A DNA stretch of 64,000 nt from Salinicola socius (lineage in GTDB: Bacteria; Pseudomonadota; Gammaproteobacteria; Pseudomonadales; Halomonadaceae). The notes under the pieces are model-generated. The model did no database searches. It was not told the origin of the DNA and was given only the letters and a program-made list of their open reading frames with translations. Within the stretch, counting starts at the first letter, position 1. The number at the start of each line of letters is the position of its first letter. A program made the position numbers and the translations under genes. Location: assembly GCF_001937195.1 (NCBI RefSeq), contig NZ_MSDO01000009.1:186001-250000 (forward strand). The letters run 5' to 3'. Below, one piece after another: positions 43,235 to 57,640 of the stretch.

Positions 43235-43311
43235 GCCCGAATAGCTCAATTGGATAGAGTACCGGCCTTCGAAGCCGTGGGTTGCAGGTTCGAGTCCTGC
43301 TTCGGGCGCCA
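43235..43311 (+). tRNA. tRNA-Arg (anticodon TCG)
   Basis: A 77-base cloverleaf. The acceptor stem GCCCGAA pairs with TTCGGGC, followed by GCCA with CCA encoded. The D-arm is GCTC/GAGT, the anticodon loop is CTTCGAA with anticodon TCG (reads CGA, Arg), and the T-arm is GCAGG-TTCGAGT-CCTGC. The first pair of the anticodon stem is a C-T mismatch. Its 3' half serves as the insertion site of the element that follows. Confidence 0.93.
43293..43305 (+). repeat. attL core (tRNA-Arg T-arm and acceptor)
   Basis: AGTCCTGCTTCGG inside the tRNA 3' end recurs exactly at 57628-57640. This is the usual attachment position for P4-type tyrosine integrases. Confidence 0.7.
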
Positions 43312-43475: not shown

Positions 43476-44672
43476 ATGCCGCTAACTGCCCGAAAGATCG
43501 AATCAACCAAACCCGCGGACAAGGTGATAACCCTTTCCGATGGATCGGGACTAGAACTCAGGATCACGCCCAACGGCAAGCGAGGCTGGCGCTTTCGTTA
43601 CGTCCGTCCTGACGGTTCTAGACGCCGCAACATGATCAGTCTCGGGGTCTACCCAACCATTACGCTCGCCAGGGCGCGAGAGCTTGCGCTGGACATCCGC
43701 CGGCAGCTCGTCGATGGCATCGACCCAGCCGAGCACCGTAAGGCCGAGAAGGAGCAAGAGCGAAACCCCCACGCCCACACTTTCCGCGTGATCGCCCAGG
43801 AATGGCATGCTGGAAAGGCTCAGCAGTGGAAGGAGTCATCTCGTCGCACCCAGGGGAGCTGGGCCGCCCTCGAGCGCCACGTGTTTCCCTTCGTCGGTGA
43901 CAAAGGGATGGACGAGATCACGCCAATGGAATGGCTGGAGCTACTGCGCCGGCTGGAGCGAGAGGGCAAGCACGAACAGAAGCGAAAGGTGCATTTCTTT
44001 TGCCGTGACGTGTACCGGCTCGCCGTGGTGACCGGCAGGGCAGCCAATAACCCGCTCAACGACCTCGCTGTGGCGCTGGTACGGGGTAAGTCGAAGCACA
44101 TGGCTCATCTCGACGCCGACGAGCTGCCTGAACTTATTCAGGCCATCGACGCCTACACGGGTAACGAACTGGTCAAGCATGGGCTCAAGCTGCTGCTGCT
44201 GACGGCGGTGCGCCCTGGCGAGCTAAGGCTGGCCAAGTGGGAAGAATTCGACTTCAACAAGGCCGTTTGGACGATTCCCGCCGACCGGATGAAGATGGGG
44301 CGTCAGCACCGTGTTCCGCTACCACGCCAGGCGATGGCCACCCTGCGCCAGATGCAACGGATCTCCGGCCATTACCCGCACCTGTTCCCCAGTCGCAATG
44401 ACGCCACCAAGATCATGTCAAACATGACCTTCAGCATGGCGCTCAAGCGAATGGGCTTCGAAGGCCGGCACGTGCCCCACGGAACACGACACACCGTTGC
44501 AACCGGGCTCAAGGAGGCTGGATTCCCCGGCGAGTGGATCGAGATGCAGCTTTCCCACAAGTTGCCAGGGATCCAGGGTGTATATACGCACGCAGAGCAT
44601 ATGGCTGCGGAGCAAAGGCCTAAAATGATGCAGGCATGGGCTGATCTTGTCTTTGATCAAGGGCTAATATAA
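43476..44672 (+). CDS. int: P4-type tyrosine integrase
   Basis: A 398-residue site-specific recombinase with the DUF4102 arm-binding start (LTARKIESTKPADKVITLSDGSGLELRI), a SAM-like core-binding domain and a catalytic domain. Catalytic residues are visible: Arg in TAVRPGELRLAKW, Lys in DRMKMGRQHRVPL, His/Arg in HGTRHTVATGL, His in QLSHK and Tyr in GVYTHAEH. It reads away from the tRNA and starts about 165 bases from it, the standard position. Intact and probably functional. Confidence 0.94.
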   Translation: MPLTARKIESTKPADKVITLSDGSGLELRITPNGKRGWRFRYVRPDGSRRRNMISLGVYPTITLARARELALDIRRQLVDGIDPAEHRKAEKEQERNPHAHTFRVIAQEWHAGKAQQWKESSRRTQGSWAALERHVFPFVGDKGMDEITPMEWLELLRRLEREGKHEQKRKVHFFCRDVYRLAVVTGRAANNPLNDLAVALVRGKSKHMAHLDADELPELIQAIDAYTGNELVKHGLKLLLLTAVRPGELRLAKWEEFDFNKAVWTIPADRMKMGRQHRVPLPRQAMATLRQMQRISGHYPHLFPSRNDATKIMSNMTFSMALKRMGFEGRHVPHGTRHTVATGLKEAGFPGEWIEMQLSHKLPGIQGVYTHAEHMAAEQRPKMMQAWADLVFDQGLI

Positions 44673-44683
44673 GTGAGTGAGTT

Positions 44684-46240
44684 ATGGCAAGGGACAATTT
44701 TTCAAAAGCTACAATTGATCGATTAGCGAAAAGAGTATCTTTTCGCTGTTCAAACCCTGACTGCAGAGTGCCAACAAGTGGACCGAATGAAAATCCTGAT
44801 AAAATCACTAATATTGGCGTCGCAGCCCATATAAATGCCGCCTCGCCAGGTGGTCCGAGATTTGACGCTAGTATGAGTCAAAGTGAGAGAAAAAACATCA
44901 AAAATGGAATATGGTTATGCGCTCACTGCGCTAAGAAAATTGATGATGATCCGGTTTTTTACACTCAATGCAAGATTGTGCGATGGAAAGAAACAGCTGA
45001 ATCGTCGGCAAGAAATGAAATTGGAAAACGTTTGCCCAAAACCAGTGATAGCACTGACCTGCTCGCCGCCGCGTTTTCTGGCATGCCTCTTAATAAAATT
45101 GGTAATGCTATTAAAAATGTCCATACTGCTCAGGAAAAGTTTCTGTCCAGCTTGGATCCCAGGTTTTCAGTCACTTCAGAATATTATGAGGATGCCACAA
45201 AATATAGGCTTGATGCAGTTGAAAAGGGGTTTGGTATAAATTTCAAGTTCAACTTCAAGGATAGGCCAGATCTAAGAGATGATCTAAGAGGTTTTTATAG
45301 GCAAGGTAGGCCGGTATCAATTCCTAGTGAGCTAGTAGAAGTCGAAGGGTCTAATTTGTTTGAGCATATATTTAGTGAGCAAGGTGAGTTAAATATAGTG
45401 CCTCAAGGTCATTCGGCAAAATTGAAGATGTGGCTGGCGGGAAACGACGTCGACGATTTTTTCCAGATTGATGACTTGGATGGTCACGTTTATATAGGCT
45501 CAGAAGAAGCCATGTTTAGAGGAGAATGTTTTGGCGGTTTGTTGAGTGTTGAGCATAGCAATATAAGCCGACAGTTGCAGGGGGCATTGAATTACACATT
45601 GAGTTTGGATATAACCAAGTGGGACCATGTCGAACTTCTTAAGCTCCCCTACTTTAATAAGCTAAAGGAGCTGGTGGAAAAAATCGTTGATGGCTGGAAT
45701 GTTTTATTTTCTCTCGAAATAAAAGGGGATGTAGTTTACAAGAGTAATCCTGTGGTTATTTCAGGTGATGAGTATTGGAGGGCTGCCTTGGATCATTTTA
45801 ATTATATTTCTTCCGCTAAAACCATATCATCCTTGTTGGGTGTCGATATCGCCCATGATTCAAATTATGTATGCGCCGGCCTCAGTGCGCTTAAAGTTAA
45901 GGAGGTCGCGGACATTATATCTGGATCCAAGGCTGTAAAGTTTTCGGATCTGACTGATTTTCCTGAGTTGTCTCTCACAGTCGATAGTCCAGATGAGGTG
46001 AAAAAAGTTTTTGGGAACCAGCAGGGACCTCAAGAAATAGTTTCCGAGATAGCTGGTAAGTCAATAGAAATCTTTGGCAGGAAAATATCTTTGCCAAAGG
46101 AGGTCTGCAGGTTTAAAGGGGTCGGTTTGAGTTTTAGTAAGCCACTCGATCTGTTAGAAATTGGAGACCGTATACAGATTGTTTTGAAACCGATGTTGCC
46201 CGACCAGGAGTTTGAGCGCTACTTTTTAGGCTATGAGTGA
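44684..46240 (+). CDS. HNH-like domain protein with large unknown C-terminal domain (putative defence effector)
   Basis: A 518-residue protein, AT-rich compared with the island backbone. The N-terminal 110 residues form a zinc-binding HNH-like domain: FRCSNPDCRVPTSGP, NIGVAAHINAASPGGPR, NGIWLCAHCAKKIDDDP and a final VRWKE. This module is common at the N-terminus of bacterial anti-phage effectors. The remaining 400 residues match nothing I recognise; they look alpha/beta with no membrane segment and probably bear the sensing function. It sits directly behind the integrase, a frequent cargo slot. Defence is an inference. Confidence 0.6.
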   Translation: MARDNFSKATIDRLAKRVSFRCSNPDCRVPTSGPNENPDKITNIGVAAHINAASPGGPRFDASMSQSERKNIKNGIWLCAHCAKKIDDDPVFYTQCKIVRWKETAESSARNEIGKRLPKTSDSTDLLAAAFSGMPLNKIGNAIKNVHTAQEKFLSSLDPRFSVTSEYYEDATKYRLDAVEKGFGINFKFNFKDRPDLRDDLRGFYRQGRPVSIPSELVEVEGSNLFEHIFSEQGELNIVPQGHSAKLKMWLAGNDVDDFFQIDDLDGHVYIGSEEAMFRGECFGGLLSVEHSNISRQLQGALNYTLSLDITKWDHVELLKLPYFNKLKELVEKIVDGWNVLFSLEIKGDVVYKSNPVVISGDEYWRAALDHFNYISSAKTISSLLGVDIAHDSNYVCAGLSALKVKEVADIISGSKAVKFSDLTDFPELSLTVDSPDEVKKVFGNQQGPQEIVSEIAGKSIEIFGRKISLPKEVCRFKGVGLSFSKPLDLLEIGDRIQIVLKPMLPDQEFERYFLGYE

Positions 46241-46689: not shown

Positions 46690-46989
46690 ATGGCCAACGT
46701 CTCATCGACAGCCGCCCCATACCGCCAGGTCGAGCGCATCGAACTCGGCAACCGCCTGTTGCGCCGCCGCGACGTGGAGCTCAAGACCGGCAAGAGCCGA
46801 TCCGCGATCTATGCCGGCGTCAGCAACGGCACCTTTCCGGCACCGGTGCCGATTGGTGAGAAGAGCGTCGCCTGGCTTGAGGAGGAGGTGGATAGCTGGA
46901 TCGCCGCCCGACTCGCCGAGCGCAACCGCACCCTGGCCGGCCGCCAGATTCACCACTTCGCCAACAACGCCCAGGAGGCCCGCGCATGA
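46690..46989 (+). CDS. alpA: AlpA-family phage transcriptional regulator
   Basis: A 99-residue MerR-like helix-turn-helix protein: LLRRRDVELKTGKSRSAIYAGVSNGTFPAPVPIGEKSVAWLEEEVDSWIAARLAER is the AlpA pattern. In P4-like elements such proteins control integrase/excision and replication genes. GAGGAACC precedes the ATG. The stop overlaps the next start (ATGA). Confidence 0.88.
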   Translation: MANVSSTAAPYRQVERIELGNRLLRRRDVELKTGKSRSAIYAGVSNGTFPAPVPIGEKSVAWLEEEVDSWIAARLAERNRTLAGRQIHHFANNAQEARA

Positions 46990-47246: not shown

Positions 47247-47555
47247 ACCGCCCGCACTCTCCGACCTAATCCGACTCGATTCACACAGCCGCTCGACGTT
47301 CACGCCGAGGGGAATAGGGAGGCTTTGTGCCTACGAAACGCGAAAACCCCGGTCAGCGTGGGGCTGCCGGGGCTCTCAAAGACACTCATAGCAATGACGA
47401 TCCTAGCAAAATCCGGCGCGGTGTCACGCCCCGACACACGCCGATTTGCCGGGGGCTGACGCTCGCCATTCGCCATCCTTTGGCCGGGGAGGGCTTGCGC
47501 CTTCCTAAAGGGTCCGGCTACGATGCTCGCGTTACGGCAAAATCCGTAACCGGGC

Positions 47556-47578
47556 GTGAGAACCCGAGTTCAAATAGG
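47556..47578 (+). promoter_or_regulatory. seqA-like target of the antisense RNA
   Basis: GTGAGAA, CCG and TCAAATAGG lie here in the order needed to pair with the antisense segment at 47674-47694, which would give about 19 base pairs with one mismatch and a small bulge. A terminator-like hairpin follows at once. This mirrors seqA of the P4 immunity region. Confidence 0.6.
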
Positions 47579-47585
47579 CGCAGCA

Positions 47586-47614
47586 GCGCCCCTACCTTTG
47601 CAGGCGCTTTTTTT
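47586..47614 (+). terminator. Terminator within the immunity leader
   Basis: GCGCC pairs with GGCGC across a 12-base loop and seven T's follow. It lies between seqA-like and the antisense RNA, where P4 uses premature termination for immunity. Confidence 0.65.
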
Positions 47615-47639
47615 GTGCCCGCAAAGCGTCGTTATGGCG

Positions 47640-47700
47640 GCTGTGCGTGGGCGGGCTCCGGCCCGGCCGGTTTCCTATTTGACCGGTTTCTCACCCCGCG
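47640..47700 (+). ncRNA. C4/CI-type antisense RNA (P1/P4 immunity RNA family)
   Basis: The antisense blocks CCTATTTGA (47674-47682) and TTCTCAC (47688-47694) are complementary to repeated blocks upstream (47556-47578) and downstream (47720-47757). CCTATTTGA is shown in the loop of a CCGGT/ACCGG hairpin. The downstream target covers the ribosome site of the gene at 47768. This is the architecture of phage P1 c4 and P4 CI RNA. Ends are approximate; the RNA is probably processed from a longer leader. Confidence 0.6.
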
Positions 47701-47719
47701 TACAGTCGCCACCCATCGT

Positions 47720-47759
47720 GTGAGAACGATTGGTGGTGACTCCTTGAATCAAATAGGAG
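47720..47759 (+). promoter_or_regulatory. seqC-like target covering the ribosome-binding site
   Basis: GTGAGAA (47720-47726) and TCAAATAGGAG (47749-47759) repeat the upstream blocks. The second includes AGGAG, the ribosome site of the ATG at 47768, so pairing with the antisense RNA would block translation. Confidence 0.6.
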
Positions 47760-47767
47760 CCTCACCC

Positions 47768-48007
47768 ATGGCAGAACACGCCCCCCGTGCGTCCGCACGA
47801 TCCGCTATCCCTCCGAATCAGATCGCTACCGCCGTCATCGGCGCCAAGCTGATCGCTTTTCGCGTCAATCGTCGTCCCGATCAACTCGCCCATCTGCTGG
47901 GTATGACCCGCATGGCCGCCGAGCTGGGCGCGATCACGCCGGAAGAACGACAGCAGTTCCTGGCCGATCTCGACGACCTGATGGCCGAGGAGATGCGTCA
48001 TGGATAA
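47768..48007 (+). CDS. Small protein controlled by the C4-like RNA (Kil/Icd position)
   Basis: A 79-residue protein beginning MAEHAPRASARSAIPPNQIATAVIG. The frame is open from 47327, but the upstream part is the structured RNA leader, and AGGAG 8 bases before 47768 fixes the start. It holds the position of P4 kil or icd genes, which inhibit host functions when immunity fails. No domain can be recognised. It overlaps the next gene by 8 bases. Confidence 0.55.
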   Translation: MAEHAPRASARSAIPPNQIATAVIGAKLIAFRVNRRPDQLAHLLGMTRMAAELGAITPEERQQFLADLDDLMAEEMRHG

Positions 48008-48317
48008 GCGCCTCGAGCAAGCCAACTGCCTGACCGAGACCGAGTGCCTGCTGATCGATCCGCGCACCGACCGCGAGACGTTGCTGGACAACGCGGAGAT
48101 GCGCCTCGACGCGATCAAGGATCTGATGTTCACGCTCTCGACCATGAACGGCCGGGACAACGATCTGACCTCGGTGGATCTCTCCAATCTGGCCATGGTG
48201 TCGCGGTTCCTCGTCGGCGACGCTTGCGACTTATTGGCAGCGGCGCGTCAGCGCGACCTGGATGCACGTGCGGCAGCGCATCGGCAGACTATCAAGGGAG
48301 GCGCTGGCCATGTCTGA
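48000..48317 (+). CDS. Hypothetical protein of P4-like element
   Basis: A 105-residue, mainly helical protein (MDKRLEQANCLTETECLLIDP). It overlaps the gene before and the primase gene after, so it is part of one translationally coupled operon. No domain recognised. Confidence 0.6.
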   Translation: MDKRLEQANCLTETECLLIDPRTDRETLLDNAEMRLDAIKDLMFTLSTMNGRDNDLTSVDLSNLAMVSRFLVGDACDLLAAARQRDLDARAAAHRQTIKGGAGHV

Positions 48318-49347
48318 AGTCGTCGCCAAGATCCAGCGCGTGTCCCGCGCCTCACTGGCTTACGCCGAAACCCTGACCCGTGAGTGGCTGCCACAAGGCA
48401 GCCGCCAGGGCAGCGAGTGGGTGGCCCGCAACGTCGCCCGCGGCGACCGCGCCAGCGGCTCGTTCGGCGTCTCGCTCGTCACCGGCAAGTGGAACGACTT
48501 TGCCGACCGCAACGCCCACGGTGGCGATCTGGTGTCGCTTTACAGCTACCTGTTCGGCTGCCGGCAGGTCGACGCCGCCATGGCGATCGATCGACGCCTG
48601 GGGCTGGGCGTGTTCCGCTGGGGGGCAGCTCCCGTAACTCCCGCAGCTGAACATTCGCCCGGCTCACACGCACCGGATGCCACCGACGAGGCACACCGCC
48701 AACGGCTGGAAAGTCTCGCCGCCGAAAAGGCCCTCGCTCGCCAGGAAGCGGCGGCCCGGGCTCGCACGGTGTGGGACGCCGCCAGGGCGGCCAGCGCCAC
48801 CCATCCCTATCTCATGAGTCGGGGCGTTCCGGCCTTTGGCCTGCGCCAGTGCCGGCGCGGCTGGCTGCTGGTGCCGCTCTGCGCTCAGGGCGAGCTGGTC
48901 AACCTGCAATGGATCCTGCCCAACGGCAAAAAGCGCTTCCTCAAGGGCGGGCAAGTCCAGGGGGCTTACTCGCTGATCGGTGAGCCCGTCGCCGGTGGCC
49001 GGCTGTTCATCTGCGAAGGCTGGGCGACCGGGGCGACCCTGCATCGCCTTACCGGCGACCCGGTGGCGTGCGCCATGAATGCCGGCAACCTGCGCGCCGT
49101 TGCCGAGACCATGCGCGCTGCGCTCAATGGCTCGCTGGATATCGTCATTGCCGGTGACGACGACCGCCAGACGGCCGGCAACCCGGGACGGCAGGCGGCC
49201 AACGATGCCGCGCTGGCCGTGGGCGCGATGGTGCTCTATCCCAAGTGGCCGGAAGGCTGCCCCGACGATCTGACCGACTTCAACGACCTGTATCGCTGGC
49301 ATCGTGCCCGACTCGATGCCGAACCGGTGGGAGGTGATCATGAGTGA
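48310..49347 (+). CDS. Toprim-domain primase-like protein
   Basis: A 345-residue protein with an N-terminal region of the P4-type primase class (FADRNAHGGDLVSLYSYLFG, then HPYLMSRGVPAFGLRQ) and a Toprim domain with LFICEGWATGATLHRLTG and the acidic IVIAGDDDRQ motif. It should synthesise primers for replication of the element. GGGAGG lies 8 bases before the ATG at 48310. It is followed with overlap by the DUF927 gene; together they replace the single alpha protein of P4. Confidence 0.85.
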   Translation: MSEVVAKIQRVSRASLAYAETLTREWLPQGSRQGSEWVARNVARGDRASGSFGVSLVTGKWNDFADRNAHGGDLVSLYSYLFGCRQVDAAMAIDRRLGLGVFRWGAAPVTPAAEHSPGSHAPDATDEAHRQRLESLAAEKALARQEAAARARTVWDAARAASATHPYLMSRGVPAFGLRQCRRGWLLVPLCAQGELVNLQWILPNGKKRFLKGGQVQGAYSLIGEPVAGGRLFICEGWATGATLHRLTGDPVACAMNAGNLRAVAETMRAALNGSLDIVIAGDDDRQTAGNPGRQAANDAALAVGAMVLYPKWPEGCPDDLTDFNDLYRWHRARLDAEPVGGDHE

Positions 49348-51115
49348 GTCACAGCCCCATCTGACCGTGGTCGGTGAGCCGGCCGCGCCGGAGCGCATCG
49401 GCATCGCCCGGCCTGGCTTCGAGGTCTACGCCGGCCCGACTACCGTCGACGGCCGCGTATTCCGCGCCGGCGTCTGGTATCACGGCATCAAGCAGACCAG
49501 CCCGGACGAACCGGGACAGCCATTCGATCTGTGGGTGTGCGGTCCGCTTCACGTCACCGCCGAAACCGTCGACAGCGATGACGGCAGCATCGGCCGGCTG
49601 TTGAAGTTCCAGCACCGGGGCCGGGAGCGCGAATGCGTCATCCCCATGGAAGCGCTGGCCGGGAAGGGCGAGGACGTGTTGAAAACCCTGATGCGCCAGG
49701 GGCTCGTCATCGAGTACCACCACCGCAAACACGTGCCGGCCTATATCGCCAGCCACCACACGCCCCAGGTGGTGCTGGACACGATCACCCGCCCCGGCTG
49801 GCATGAGCGCAGCGGCGCGTTCGTGCTGCCCAACCGGATCATCGGCAGCGACCGCGTGCGTTTTCACAGTTCCGGCCGGGAAGCGCGGATCTTCGACACC
49901 CTGGGCACGCTCGAGGGCTGGCAAAGCGAGATCGCCGAGCCGTGCCTGGGCAACCCGGTGCTGATCCTGTCGGTGTGCTGCGCCCTGGCTGGCCCGCTGC
50001 TCAAGAAGGTGGGCGTCAACGGCGGCGGGGTGCATCTGGTGGGTGACTCCTCCAGCGGTAAATCGCTCGCCCAGGACATCGCCGCCACCGTGTGGGGGCC
50101 GGCGGATCGCTTCAAGGTCTCCTGGGACATGTCCGGGGGCGGTGTCGAGATCGAAGCTTCGTCGCGTAACGACACGGTGATGATCAACGACGAGATGAGC
50201 CGCGCCAGCCCCAAGCAGATCCAGGGCCACGCCTACGCCATCGCCAACGGCACCGGCAAGGGCACCATGACCCGGGAACGGGAAGGGCGGCCCAAGAACT
50301 ACTGGCGCTTGCTCGCGCTCTCCAGTGGCGAGCGCTCGCTGGCCGATCATGCCGCCATGGCGGGCAACACCGCTCACGCCGGCGCGGAACTGCGCATGGT
50401 CGATATCAACGCCGGTACGCGGAAATACCGCGCCTTCGATGACGTCCACGGCACCAACGGCGAAGCCTTCCACCGTACCCTGACCGGGGCGGCCGGGCGC
50501 CACTATGGCCATGTCGGTCCCGCGCTGGTCGAGAAGCTGCTCGAGGACGAGATCGCCGATGGCCTGACGTGGCGCTTCGGCGAGATCCGCAAGGCGTTCA
50601 ACGTCTCGAGCTCCCAGGCGGGACGGGTGGCGGATCGCTTCGCGGTGATGGCGCTGGCCGGTGAGCTGGCCAGCGACTGCGGCATCCTGCCCTGGCCAGC
50701 CGGGACATCGACCGACGCCTGTCGGCTGCTGTTCGCCGAATGGCTGGCCACCATCGGTGACGGTAACGCCGAGGATCGCCAGATCCTCTCTGCGCTGTCC
50801 GACTTCATCGCCCTGCACGGGGATAGCCGGTTCTCGAGCATCCACGCCCAGTTCGCCGATCCCAACGTGCGCCACCGCGCCGGTTACTTCGAGATCGAGG
50901 GCGACAAGCGCTTCTACCTGTTCAACCGCGCCGCGATTACCGAGGCCGCCGAGGGCTACAGCCGTGCCCGGATCCTGCGCACGCTGGGGCAGCACGACGT
51001 GCTGGCCAAGATGGACGAAGGCCGCAAGCAGAAGAAATACCGCCTGCCAGGGGGAGGGATGGGGCGGTTCTTCGTCATCGATCCCGAGCGACTCGACCCG
51101 GAGGGCGGATCCTGA
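49340..51115 (+). CDS. DUF927 helicase-like replication protein
   Basis: A 591-residue P-loop protein. DUF927 spans about residues 25-300 and contains the Walker A loop GDSSSGKS at about 235-242, and a DTVMINDEMSR acidic segment near 275. The C-terminal part resembles a DNA-binding module of primase/helicases. It probably unwinds DNA at the element's origin. The ATG at 49340 has GGGAGG upstream and overlaps the primase stop; its own stop overlaps the next start. Confidence 0.85.
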   Translation: MSESQPHLTVVGEPAAPERIGIARPGFEVYAGPTTVDGRVFRAGVWYHGIKQTSPDEPGQPFDLWVCGPLHVTAETVDSDDGSIGRLLKFQHRGRERECVIPMEALAGKGEDVLKTLMRQGLVIEYHHRKHVPAYIASHHTPQVVLDTITRPGWHERSGAFVLPNRIIGSDRVRFHSSGREARIFDTLGTLEGWQSEIAEPCLGNPVLILSVCCALAGPLLKKVGVNGGGVHLVGDSSSGKSLAQDIAATVWGPADRFKVSWDMSGGGVEIEASSRNDTVMINDEMSRASPKQIQGHAYAIANGTGKGTMTREREGRPKNYWRLLALSSGERSLADHAAMAGNTAHAGAELRMVDINAGTRKYRAFDDVHGTNGEAFHRTLTGAAGRHYGHVGPALVEKLLEDEIADGLTWRFGEIRKAFNVSSSQAGRVADRFAVMALAGELASDCGILPWPAGTSTDACRLLFAEWLATIGDGNAEDRQILSALSDFIALHGDSRFSSIHAQFADPNVRHRAGYFEIEGDKRFYLFNRAAITEAAEGYSRARILRTLGQHDVLAKMDEGRKQKKYRLPGGGMGRFFVIDPERLDPEGGS

Positions 51116-52107
51116 TGCGACCCGACAGCGCCCCGCACGTCCAAAACGTGCCGACCGAGGCAGACCCAAACCAACACCCGCCGGGCGGCATGACCGCCGC
51201 CCGGAAGAAAGCCGACGCCAACGCCGATACCGCCAACACCGTGACCCAGGAGCCAACCCGCATGACCACGCCGACCGAGAACAGCCAGGAAACCCAAGCC
51301 CGCACCCAACCGACCGGAGAGACTGCCGCCATGACAACCGCCCGCCACATGATCGCCCACGCCAAGCAGCGCACGACCTATCTGGCCAAGCGCGACACGC
51401 TCAAGACCCTGACCGAACGCCTCGAGCGCTACCGCAAGGGGGCGGCCGCTGCCCGGGAAGAAGCCGAGACCAGCGACAAGCGCTGGCGCGAACTGCTGCG
51501 CGAGAACCACGGCGACGTCACCAAGGAGATCCGGCAGCTCAAGCGTGCCGTCGGTGACAATCGCGAGACCGCCGAGGAACTGGAGGCGATGGCCACCGAA
51601 CTGACCGACGAGTATGAATCCCGTCAGATCGAGGTGATTACAGCGCGCACTGCCTACCGGGACGCTCGACAGAAAGCCTGGGATATCGAGGTCGAGACCG
51701 AGTTCGATCATGCTCTGGCTGCAATGAGCGCCACACCCGAAGGCCAGCGCCTGCTGTCTGCCATGCGCCTGATGCAGCGCAAGAGCGAGCGCGATGTGAT
51801 GGTCGATCCGTCCTACGGCGATGGTCAGTACGGAAACTTCCCCACCGAGGAACGCCGACGCGTGGATGCCGAGATCGAACGACGCTTCCCCCGCCGGCTG
51901 GTCGAGGGGCTGGCGAAGCAGCGGCAAGCCCAGGGAGTGGATGCCACCACACCACTCGACAGCCTCGAGGCACTGCAACCGGTGGCCGAACTGGCCTGCG
52001 AGCAAGGCTACGATGGTCCACGTACGGCTATGCAAGCCGATTTCGCTAGGCGCCGCCGCCAGATCGACGCCGCCCAGGGCACCGGGAGCGAACAACGCCG
52101 CGCCTGA
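51115..52107 (+). CDS. Coiled-coil protein of unknown function, last gene of the replication operon
   Basis: A 330-residue protein. The first 75 residues are polar and Pro/Thr/Ala-rich, and the next 140 are highly charged coiled coil (residues about 85-200, RWRELLRENHGDVTKEIRQLKRAVG). The ATG shares one base with the DUF927 stop. Its shape recalls the P4 Psu anti-termination/capsid protein, but similarity is too weak to claim. A strong terminator follows. Confidence 0.6.
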   Translation: MRPDSAPHVQNVPTEADPNQHPPGGMTAARKKADANADTANTVTQEPTRMTTPTENSQETQARTQPTGETAAMTTARHMIAHAKQRTTYLAKRDTLKTLTERLERYRKGAAAAREEAETSDKRWRELLRENHGDVTKEIRQLKRAVGDNRETAEELEAMATELTDEYESRQIEVITARTAYRDARQKAWDIEVETEFDHALAAMSATPEGQRLLSAMRLMQRKSERDVMVDPSYGDGQYGNFPTEERRRVDAEIERRFPRRLVEGLAKQRQAQGVDATTPLDSLEALQPVAELACEQGYDGPRTAMQADFARRRRQIDAAQGTGSEQRRA

Positions 52108-52161: not shown

Positions 52162-52340
52162 CGTGCGCGGACGGCCTCGCCCGACGTCCCCAATAGCTCC
52201 AGCGCAATGACCCAACCCCGAAACCCATTCGCTCGCCAGGAGAAAGGGAACTTGCCTAATCCTATGATCGCTGGCATCCGACACGTTCGAGGAGGGAATC
52301 AGGAACGTCTGAGTCAATTCTCACAGGAACCTCAAAAATA

Positions 52341-52574
52341 GTGGGAACACCGGGAACAGTGGGAACACCGCGCTACAACCCGCATGGTTGAGCGGTTCCC
52401 TTGTTCCCAGTATGGAGTGTGTAAACGGGAACAAGTGGGTACAACAATGGGTACGGGTGTCGTCTGACACTGAGAGAGGGTGATTCTGTTCCCACTGTTC
52501 CCAAAACCGGGAACGGTGTACCCATCCTGTAACCTGCATGGTTGAGCCTTGTTCCCGGTGTTCCCACTGTTCCC
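52341..52574. repeat. Iteron-rich putative replication origin
   Basis: Twelve copies of GGGAAC or its complement GTTCCC occur within 234 bases: five on the plus strand and seven on the minus. GGGTAC variants and two perfect copies of GCATGGTTGAGC (52382 and 52536) flank the centre. This resembles the iteron-type ori/crr of P4, which lies beside the alpha gene. No gene is present between 52162 and 52745. Confidence 0.65.
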
Positions 52575-52745
52575 ACTAAAAAATCACGTGTGTAATAACG
52601 CATTGGGGAGATGAGAAACGTTATCGACTGTGATGTGATGCCGAATTGCATAATCATGCGGCTGAGCATTCGCCCCCTGGCGAGCGAATGGGGTTCGTCG
52701 CGTCTACTCTGAATCTATTCGAAGACGAGCACGGCAGGGGGAGCG

Positions 52746-57627: not shown

Positions 57628-57640
57628 AGTCCTGCTTCGG
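57628..57640 (+). repeat. attR repeat of the tRNA-Arg 3' end
   Basis: AGTCCTGCTTCGG, identical to 43293-43305 in the tRNA gene. It lies 3 bases from the end of the pirin gene, where base composition returns to core level. The following bases (TCCTC) do not continue the tRNA sequence. Confidence 0.65.

Follow-up and report, generated by a model that had tools for sequence, protein, structure and literature searches.

The 64,000 nt stretch of Salinicola socius DNA analysed here (the window) contains a locus that, judged by its sequence, is a C4/CI-type antisense RNA with two targets, a kind of system that is already known. In this salt-loving bacterium, the C4 RNA very probably holds a P4-like phage satellite in the repressed state, and there is little doubt that the locus would act as the immunity switch of the satellite.

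Direct reading of the sequence finds two ordered blocks, a (GTGAGAA) and b (TCAAATAGG), each present twice (Table 1), exactly as an earlier note on this DNA had reported for positions 47556-47578 and 47720-47757. The note further held that each block has one complement between the two target copies, which is the case: CCTATTTGA, the complement of b, lies at 47674-47682, and TTCTCAC, the complement of a, at 47688-47694. The predicted fold agrees with its placement of CCTATTTGA in a hairpin loop (that of the second hairpin), whereas TTCTCAC falls in an unpaired junction and not in a loop. The second target enters a Shine-Dalgarno sequence (AGGAG, 47755-47759) that stands 8 bases before the ATG at 47768, so that it does include the ribosome site of this gene, and a terminator-like hairpin with a run of seven T residues (47586-47614) follows the first target; both had been noticed earlier. 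The 5′ arm of this terminator can also pair with GGCGC at 47577-47581, which begins with the two bases that end the first target.

Table 1. Features of the satellite element and of its immunity locus, in window coordinates.
Feature	Coordinates	Strand	Basis
tRNA-Arg (TCG), likely integration site, element left end	43235..43311	+	ARAGORN
Tyrosine integrase	43476..44672	+	Pfam PF00589, PF13356, PF22022
AlpA-family regulator	46690..46989	+	PF05930 (E 2.5e-17)
Putative promoter, TTGCGC, 18 bases, TACGAT	47495..47524	+	7/12 consensus matches; usual distance before first target
isrK-like short leader RNA with first target and its terminator	47531..47614	+	RF01394, 50.4 bits (cut-off 50)
First target, block a1 (GTGAGAA), predicted hairpin loop	47556..47562	+	Sequence, fold
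First target, block b1 (TCAAATAGG)	47570..47578	+	Sequence
Predicted antiterminator hairpin GGCGC-AGCA-GCGCC; first GG is end of b1	47577..47590	+	Folding with and without b1 covered; competing arms in homologous loci
Predicted intrinsic terminator GCGCC...GGCGC-T7, exclusive with antiterminator	47586..47614	+	Sequence, folding
C4 antisense RNA; b′ CCTATTTGA in loop (47674-47682), a′ TTCTCAC in junction (47688-47694)	47630..47716	+	RF01695, 84.2 bits; fold
Second target, block a2 (GTGAGAA)	47720..47726	+	Sequence
Second target, block b2 (TCAAATAGG, 47749-47757), into Shine-Dalgarno AGGAG	47749..47759	+	Sequence; start codon 3′ of b2 in homologues
79-aa first gene of presumed operon	47768..48007	+	phrog_6684 (E 2.1e-6)
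105-aa gene	48000..48317	+	Weak phrog_6327 (E 0.032)
Toprim DNA primase	48310..49347	+	PF13362 (8e-13); phrog_2249 (1.3e-61)
DUF927 replicative helicase-like protein	49304..51115	+	PF06048 (4.5e-65); phrog_1139 (1.4e-71)
Psu-like (perhaps Sid-like) protein, 330 aa	51115..52107	+	phrog_6165, Psu-like (6.5e-14); P4 Sid chain 7jw1_E (E 0.027)

The covariance-model search that the note had proposed as a check gives a clear match: the Rfam C4 model (RF01695) aligns over its full length (1-87) with 84.2 bits against a cut-off of 45 (E 4.3e-15). The matched RNA has a predicted folding energy of -53.9 kcal/mol (z = -5.8), which none of 200 shuffles equalled, and it folds like the family: a long stem encloses two hairpins, the second of which presents b′ in its loop, while a′ occupies the junction. 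The same model matches the own regions of phage P4 (74.9 bits) and P1 (68.8 bits), where the order is also seqA-antisense-seqC, so that the comparison with P1 c4 and P4 CI in the note was well chosen. In particular, the P4 CI RNA shares with the window the order of first target, terminator, antisense RNA and second target, as well as the GTGAGAA of block a; in contrast, block b differs (TTCACAGG in P4, TCAAATAGG in the window), as do host and cargo, and because of this difference in block b P4 immunity is predicted not to act on the window element. In both, the C4 and isrK models exceed their cut-offs and the c4-a1b1 model falls just under; its near miss in the window (RF03163, 47518-47570, 45.3 bits against 46.7) is not telling, because the leader of P4 itself also falls short (44.1 bits). 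P1 and P7 c4 have the same fold and the same plan, in which a′ and b′ face a1b1 and a2b2. The c4 RNA of P1 controls the icd/ant operon, whereas that of the window precedes a presumed operon with replication genes. Parts of PMC5320573 describe the roles of the C4 blocks and a 4-base difference between P1 and P7, and cite a P1/P7 C4 RNA whose 5′ end is cut by RNase P and whose mature length is about 77 bases; the C4 RNA and its upstream target (RF01695 and RF03163) are both tabulated in a section of Weinberg et al. 2010 (PMC2864571).

The isrK model (RF01394) passes only marginally in the window (50.4 bits against a cut-off of 50). It is improbable that this isrK-like leader RNA (47531-47614), and not the C4 RNA, is the main actor and, as a product of early termination, activates the operon, either in trans on the read-through RNA or as a sponge for C4. 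The short RNA does carry a full copy of both blocks, and, according to portions of PMC4825925 that also describe P4 CI, seqA and seqC, the IsrK RNA of Gifsy-1 activates translation of the read-through RNA in Salmonella and could inactivate STnc1160, a stable RNA processed from downstream of IsrK. Gifsy-1 IsrK resembles the window locus as a short leader RNA that runs to an intrinsic terminator and is followed by a processed RNA; it differs in its target, since IsrK controls an antirepressor and, by way of this, an antiterminator protein, in place of the presumed replication operon of the window. However, the isrK match is marginal while the C4 match is far stronger, and, because the P4 leader scores higher with the isrK model (60.8 bits), the match mostly denotes a P4-like leader; both readings can be true.

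The C4 locus lies within a P4-like element of about 9.4 kb that contains a tRNA-Arg, an integrase, AlpA, a primase, a helicase and a Psu-like protein. Within this satellite gene set, the integrase, AlpA, primase and helicase are clear, and the Psu-like protein is assigned from a single PHROG match; no Pfam model exceeded its cut-off for the 330-aa Psu-like protein, nor any Pfam or NCBIfam model for the 79-aa gene. Psu and Sid themselves aside, no virion proteins were found among the searched reading frames of the element. One tRNA-Arg stands to the left of the element genes in all eight relatives scanned. At the other end, three relatives were aligned with the window; two of them (L119 and L123) cease aligning at about 52690, from which the length of about 9.4 kb follows, while the third (L122) continues past this position because the same host gene apparently follows. 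A candidate attachment repeat at 57629 (an 18-base match with 3 mismatches) was rejected as the right end, since L119 and L123 diverge at about 52690. Just before the right end (about 52340-52590), repeated GTTCCCAC- and GTGGGAAC-type motifs, which are nearly identical in the three aligned relatives, are likely a replication origin with iterons. Further, a 518-aa cargo gene lies between the integrase and AlpA (44684-46240); over roughly the first 115 residues its product resembles PDC-M68A (E 9e-24) and HNH-type effector endonucleases of the PADLOC defence library, and it may be an anti-phage gene. The 330-aa protein (51115-52107) has 30 to 95% identity to the window's copy across Salinicola elements, a spread that might reflect a changing set of helpers.

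A search with the primase found 35 loci in named genomes, the closest being that of S. halophyticus with 94% identity, and a pattern search found a C4 RNA before the primase in 30 of them; the genera are Salinicola, Kushneria, Larsenimonas, Halotalea, Billgrantia, Vreelandella, Halovibrio, Halomonas and Pseudomonas. The corresponding scan of viral_contigs returned 9 distant loci, in which the pattern search found no convincing C4. The Pseudomonas satellite prophage phiAH14b has AlpA, a C4 RNA (89 bits), a primase and a helicase in the same order as the window, with different blocks (a′ CCGTCAA, b′ CCTTTTGCC). It is reported, in PMC4936722, to be an inducible satellite packaged by a helper phage. 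Its complete C4 system (L115:3957-4043, KU708005.1), with the same plan as in the window, lies within a stretch annotated as a hypothetical gene, and a text search of PMC4936722 returned no occurrence of 'antisense' or 'non-coding RNA'.

From this architecture we infer how the window locus would be transcribed and its RNA processed, and how repression, immunity and the attenuator would follow. In the integrated state, the putative promoter at about 47495-47524 would produce a steady transcript whose leader spans both targets with the C4 RNA between them; cut out of this leader, the C4 RNA would pair with both target copies through its loop (b′) and its junction (a′). At the second target, C4 would cover the ribosome site of the 47768 gene, silencing the replication operon (the small genes, primase, helicase and Psu-like protein) and favouring early termination. 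At the first target, it would remove the 5′ arm of the antiterminator, allowing the terminator to form, and this termination would limit both the synthesis of C4 itself and the operon. Superinfection immunity would result, since a satellite that arrives with the same block pair would be shut down likewise. A kil/icd/ant-type role for the first operon gene is only putative, and its product has no recognised function.

Of 201 host-family genomes, 86 have C4 RNAs; in a sample of 369 genomes from the class, the number is 24 (the window's genome is in both samples). The family set comprises 111 places, from which 101 loci were obtained after one (L113, below the cut-off) was left unparsed and 9 near-identical ones were removed; subsets of 79, 96 and 98 of these loci were used for the fold, promoter and arm tests. 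The class-wide set comprises 56 places, of which 43 were retrieved, 40 were read by a cruder parse and 37 had a readable terminator. Across the family loci, the blocks are kept as pairs and their sequences are not fixed, which bears out the conservation of paired blocks in homologous elements. In particular, b′ has at least 7 consecutive pairs (G-U allowed) with the upstream target in 98, with the downstream target in 96 and with both in 93 of the 101 loci, compared with both-sided pairing in 7.5% of 2941 swapped combinations of loci with different loops; one b target is absent or short in the other 8. Counting exact pairs only, at least 7 are found for a′ in 100 of 101 loci on each side (16-18% when swapped), and for b′ in 77 upstream and 88 downstream (7-9% when swapped). 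Moreover, an ATG, GTG or TTG begins 4 to 11 bases after b2 in 91 of 93 homologous loci. The class-wide numbers are 24 of 40 for b and 27 of 40 for a on both sides, counts from the crude parse that are uncorrected for misread loops and whose shortfall arises partly because the parse took several loops wrongly.

The upstream b pairing is shorter (8.2 versus 9.0 pairs) and weaker (-11.1 versus -12.8 kcal/mol, p = 3.5e-12) than the downstream one, which, we think, mostly reflects the extra A of the Shine-Dalgarno sequence downstream. A wobble bias at the upstream target was considered and rejected: G-U pairs are richer upstream in 14 loci, richer downstream in 12 and equal in 67 (p = 0.85). As to the promoter, a sigma-70-like site with at least 9 of 12 consensus matches precedes the first target, at a fairly fixed distance, in 38 of 96 homologous loci compared with 2% of shuffles, and both hexamers are largely kept across an alignment of 11 loci; a standard promoter scan returned no site before the first target in the window.

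The first target is likely a C4-gated attenuator step, according to model calculations of the leader's fold. The GGCGC at 47577-47581 can pair with GCGCC at 47586-47590 to form an antiterminator, and the same GCGCC can pair with GGCGC at 47603-47607 to form the terminator that precedes the T7 run. In the window, the terminator is predicted with a probability of 0.04 when b1 is free and of 0.99 when it is covered. Across the 79 family loci of the fold test, which were selected for three exactly readable arms, the mean increases from 0.44 to 0.90 with b1 covered and is 0.41 when blocks further upstream are covered; the terminator probability rises by more than 0.2 in 54 loci and falls by more than 0.2 in 3 when b1 is covered, and it rises in 7 of 79 when the further-upstream blocks are. 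When the transcript is cut short just past the second arm, the antiterminator forms with a mean predicted probability of 0.95. Of the family loci, 89 of 98 can form a competing helix of at least 5 exact pairs, as can 25 of 37 class-wide loci; about 7% of shuffles do so. This threshold replaced an earlier null of at least 3 pairs, which was reached in 98 of 101 loci (98 family loci and 3 phages), because 70% of shuffles passed it as well. The class-wide loci, several of which come from one genome and are thus not all independent, include 25 without the GGCGC/GCGCC strand, and 13 of these have a competing helix (6.5% of shuffles) through other strands such as AGGCG, GAGCG, AAGCG, TGGCG and GAGAGC. 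P1 has the same competing plan with TGCGG, and its predicted fold switches when b1 is covered. Termination that depends on C4/CI is an idea with precedent: Briani et al. reportedly described, in 2000, an antisense-dependent terminator, t1, before cI in P4.

The calculations do not behave in the same way everywhere. In P4 and phiAH14b, the best fold holds the terminator without b1 being covered; the same preference is seen in 36 of the 79 family loci, and 3 of 101 family loci have no T-run at the terminator position. In view of these cases, the attenuator may be confined to nascent transcripts or to a subset of the loci. It is also conceivable, if rather unlikely, that C4 acts only at the second target, on the ribosome site, and that the terminator works constitutively, the overlap between b1 and the antiterminator arm being a by-product. 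P4 and phiAH14b do reach the terminator fold unaided; further, the GG at b1 could be a mere effect of sharing one loop, because the second target needs this GG as its Shine-Dalgarno sequence. For the IsrK system, passages of PMC4825925 point both ways: they suggest that the C4-like STnc1160 may, like CI, modulate the IsrK terminator, and they report that constitutive STnc1160 strengthened the IsrK growth arrest, which argues against simple C4-driven termination there. However, loop sharing leaves unexplained why the adjoining bases complement the terminator arm as frequently as they do in both surveys, and competing arms occur also with different arm sequences. The C4-gated attenuator yields a testable prediction, namely that C4 controls termination at the first target; in a limited literature search, no C4/CI leader was described as having an antiterminator hairpin, which is no proof that none has been published.

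The blocks would specify a two-part address. The note's suggestion that the block sequences may be private to this element had to be given up: GTGAGAA is also P4's, and both window blocks occur together in Salinicola halophyticus, Vreelandella songnenensis, Halomonas ventosae and H. olivaria. S. lusitanus has the window's b with another a, and P4 and a number of others have its a with another b; the 30 of 35 named-genome loci whose C4 RNA was found by pattern entered this comparison. The 101 family loci contain about 70 block pairs, namely 76 by exact blocks, a slight overcount because a few equal blocks were read one base apart, and 69 groups by mutual recognition. At least two a partners are found for 13 of the 50 b blocks, and two of these 13 have five each. 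Different block pairs are frequent among elements whose primases are 97-99% identical; for the 27 element pairs with primase identities of at least 90%, a is common to 12, b to 4 and both to 3. Since a and b blocks are found in so many different pairings, satellites may be able to switch their immunity group fast; the limited literature search found no description of block recombination on this scale in C4/CI loci.

The same comparisons bear on the possibility that the locus is a decayed remnant, or a regulator of other RNAs recruited by the host, as sections of PMC5320573 propose for Acinetobacter baumannii C4-like RNAs, which have variable block regions and proposed host targets. Such a fate is very improbable here: both targets are intact and the operon genes open in the window, the blocks change together with their targets across loci, and the same blocks are found in the L119 element, whose primase is 94% identical.

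An immunity switch, as preferred here, predicts which satellites of Salinicola, Kushneria, Vreelandella and Halomonas should be mutually exclusive, and this is testable now that the identity of the locus is fixed and its predicted immunity group named. Avoidance of shared blocks within a genome is not evident: co-resident elements have identical block pairs in 3 of 36 pairs, all in one genome, and elements of different genomes in 61 of 5959; outside that one genome, none of 21 co-resident pairs is identical compared with the same 61 of 5959, a comparison without power. With a loose recognition rule, 11 of 36 co-resident pairs recognize each other compared with 5.7%, and 8 of the 11 come from that same genome. 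One genome (G022) has six C4 loci (L027, L036 and L037 among them), three of which have an identical RNA, a situation that does not follow from simple superinfection immunity. No downstream b block was found at one of the three (L037).

The chances are about even that antisense-gated attenuation, with a two-part address and a dual-role CC, is a general property of C4/CI loci, that satellites can switch immunity groups fast, and that the loci constitute natural orthogonal RNA switches. The nearly invariant CC of the C4 loop would cover the GG of the Shine-Dalgarno sequence at the second target and would take the GG of the antiterminator arm at the first, and the other loop and junction bases may be free to change provided that the three sites change together. 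If the attenuator is true, it would account for a loop that is highly variable except for its CC, and it would provide many natural, mutually blind RNA regulators; the loci make it tractable to examine how three interleaved sites change together without loss of function. The results suggest that the antiterminator overlap and the extent of block recombination are the parts that go beyond the known C4/CI system and are worth testing.

Further C4 RNAs were seen in other contexts. The window's genome has a second one on another contig (C89, L002:1501-1587; 73.9 bits) with different blocks, where the c4-a1b1 model passes with 50.8 bits; the gene behind it matches phage antirepressor families and is perhaps in a prophage, and this RNA is predicted not to cross-react with the window locus. 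In another genome (G461, contig C9, 1700-3092; L177), four C4 RNAs, each with a terminator before it, follow one another within 1.4 kb, and the genome has two more places elsewhere; the series is perhaps an array of immunity RNAs.
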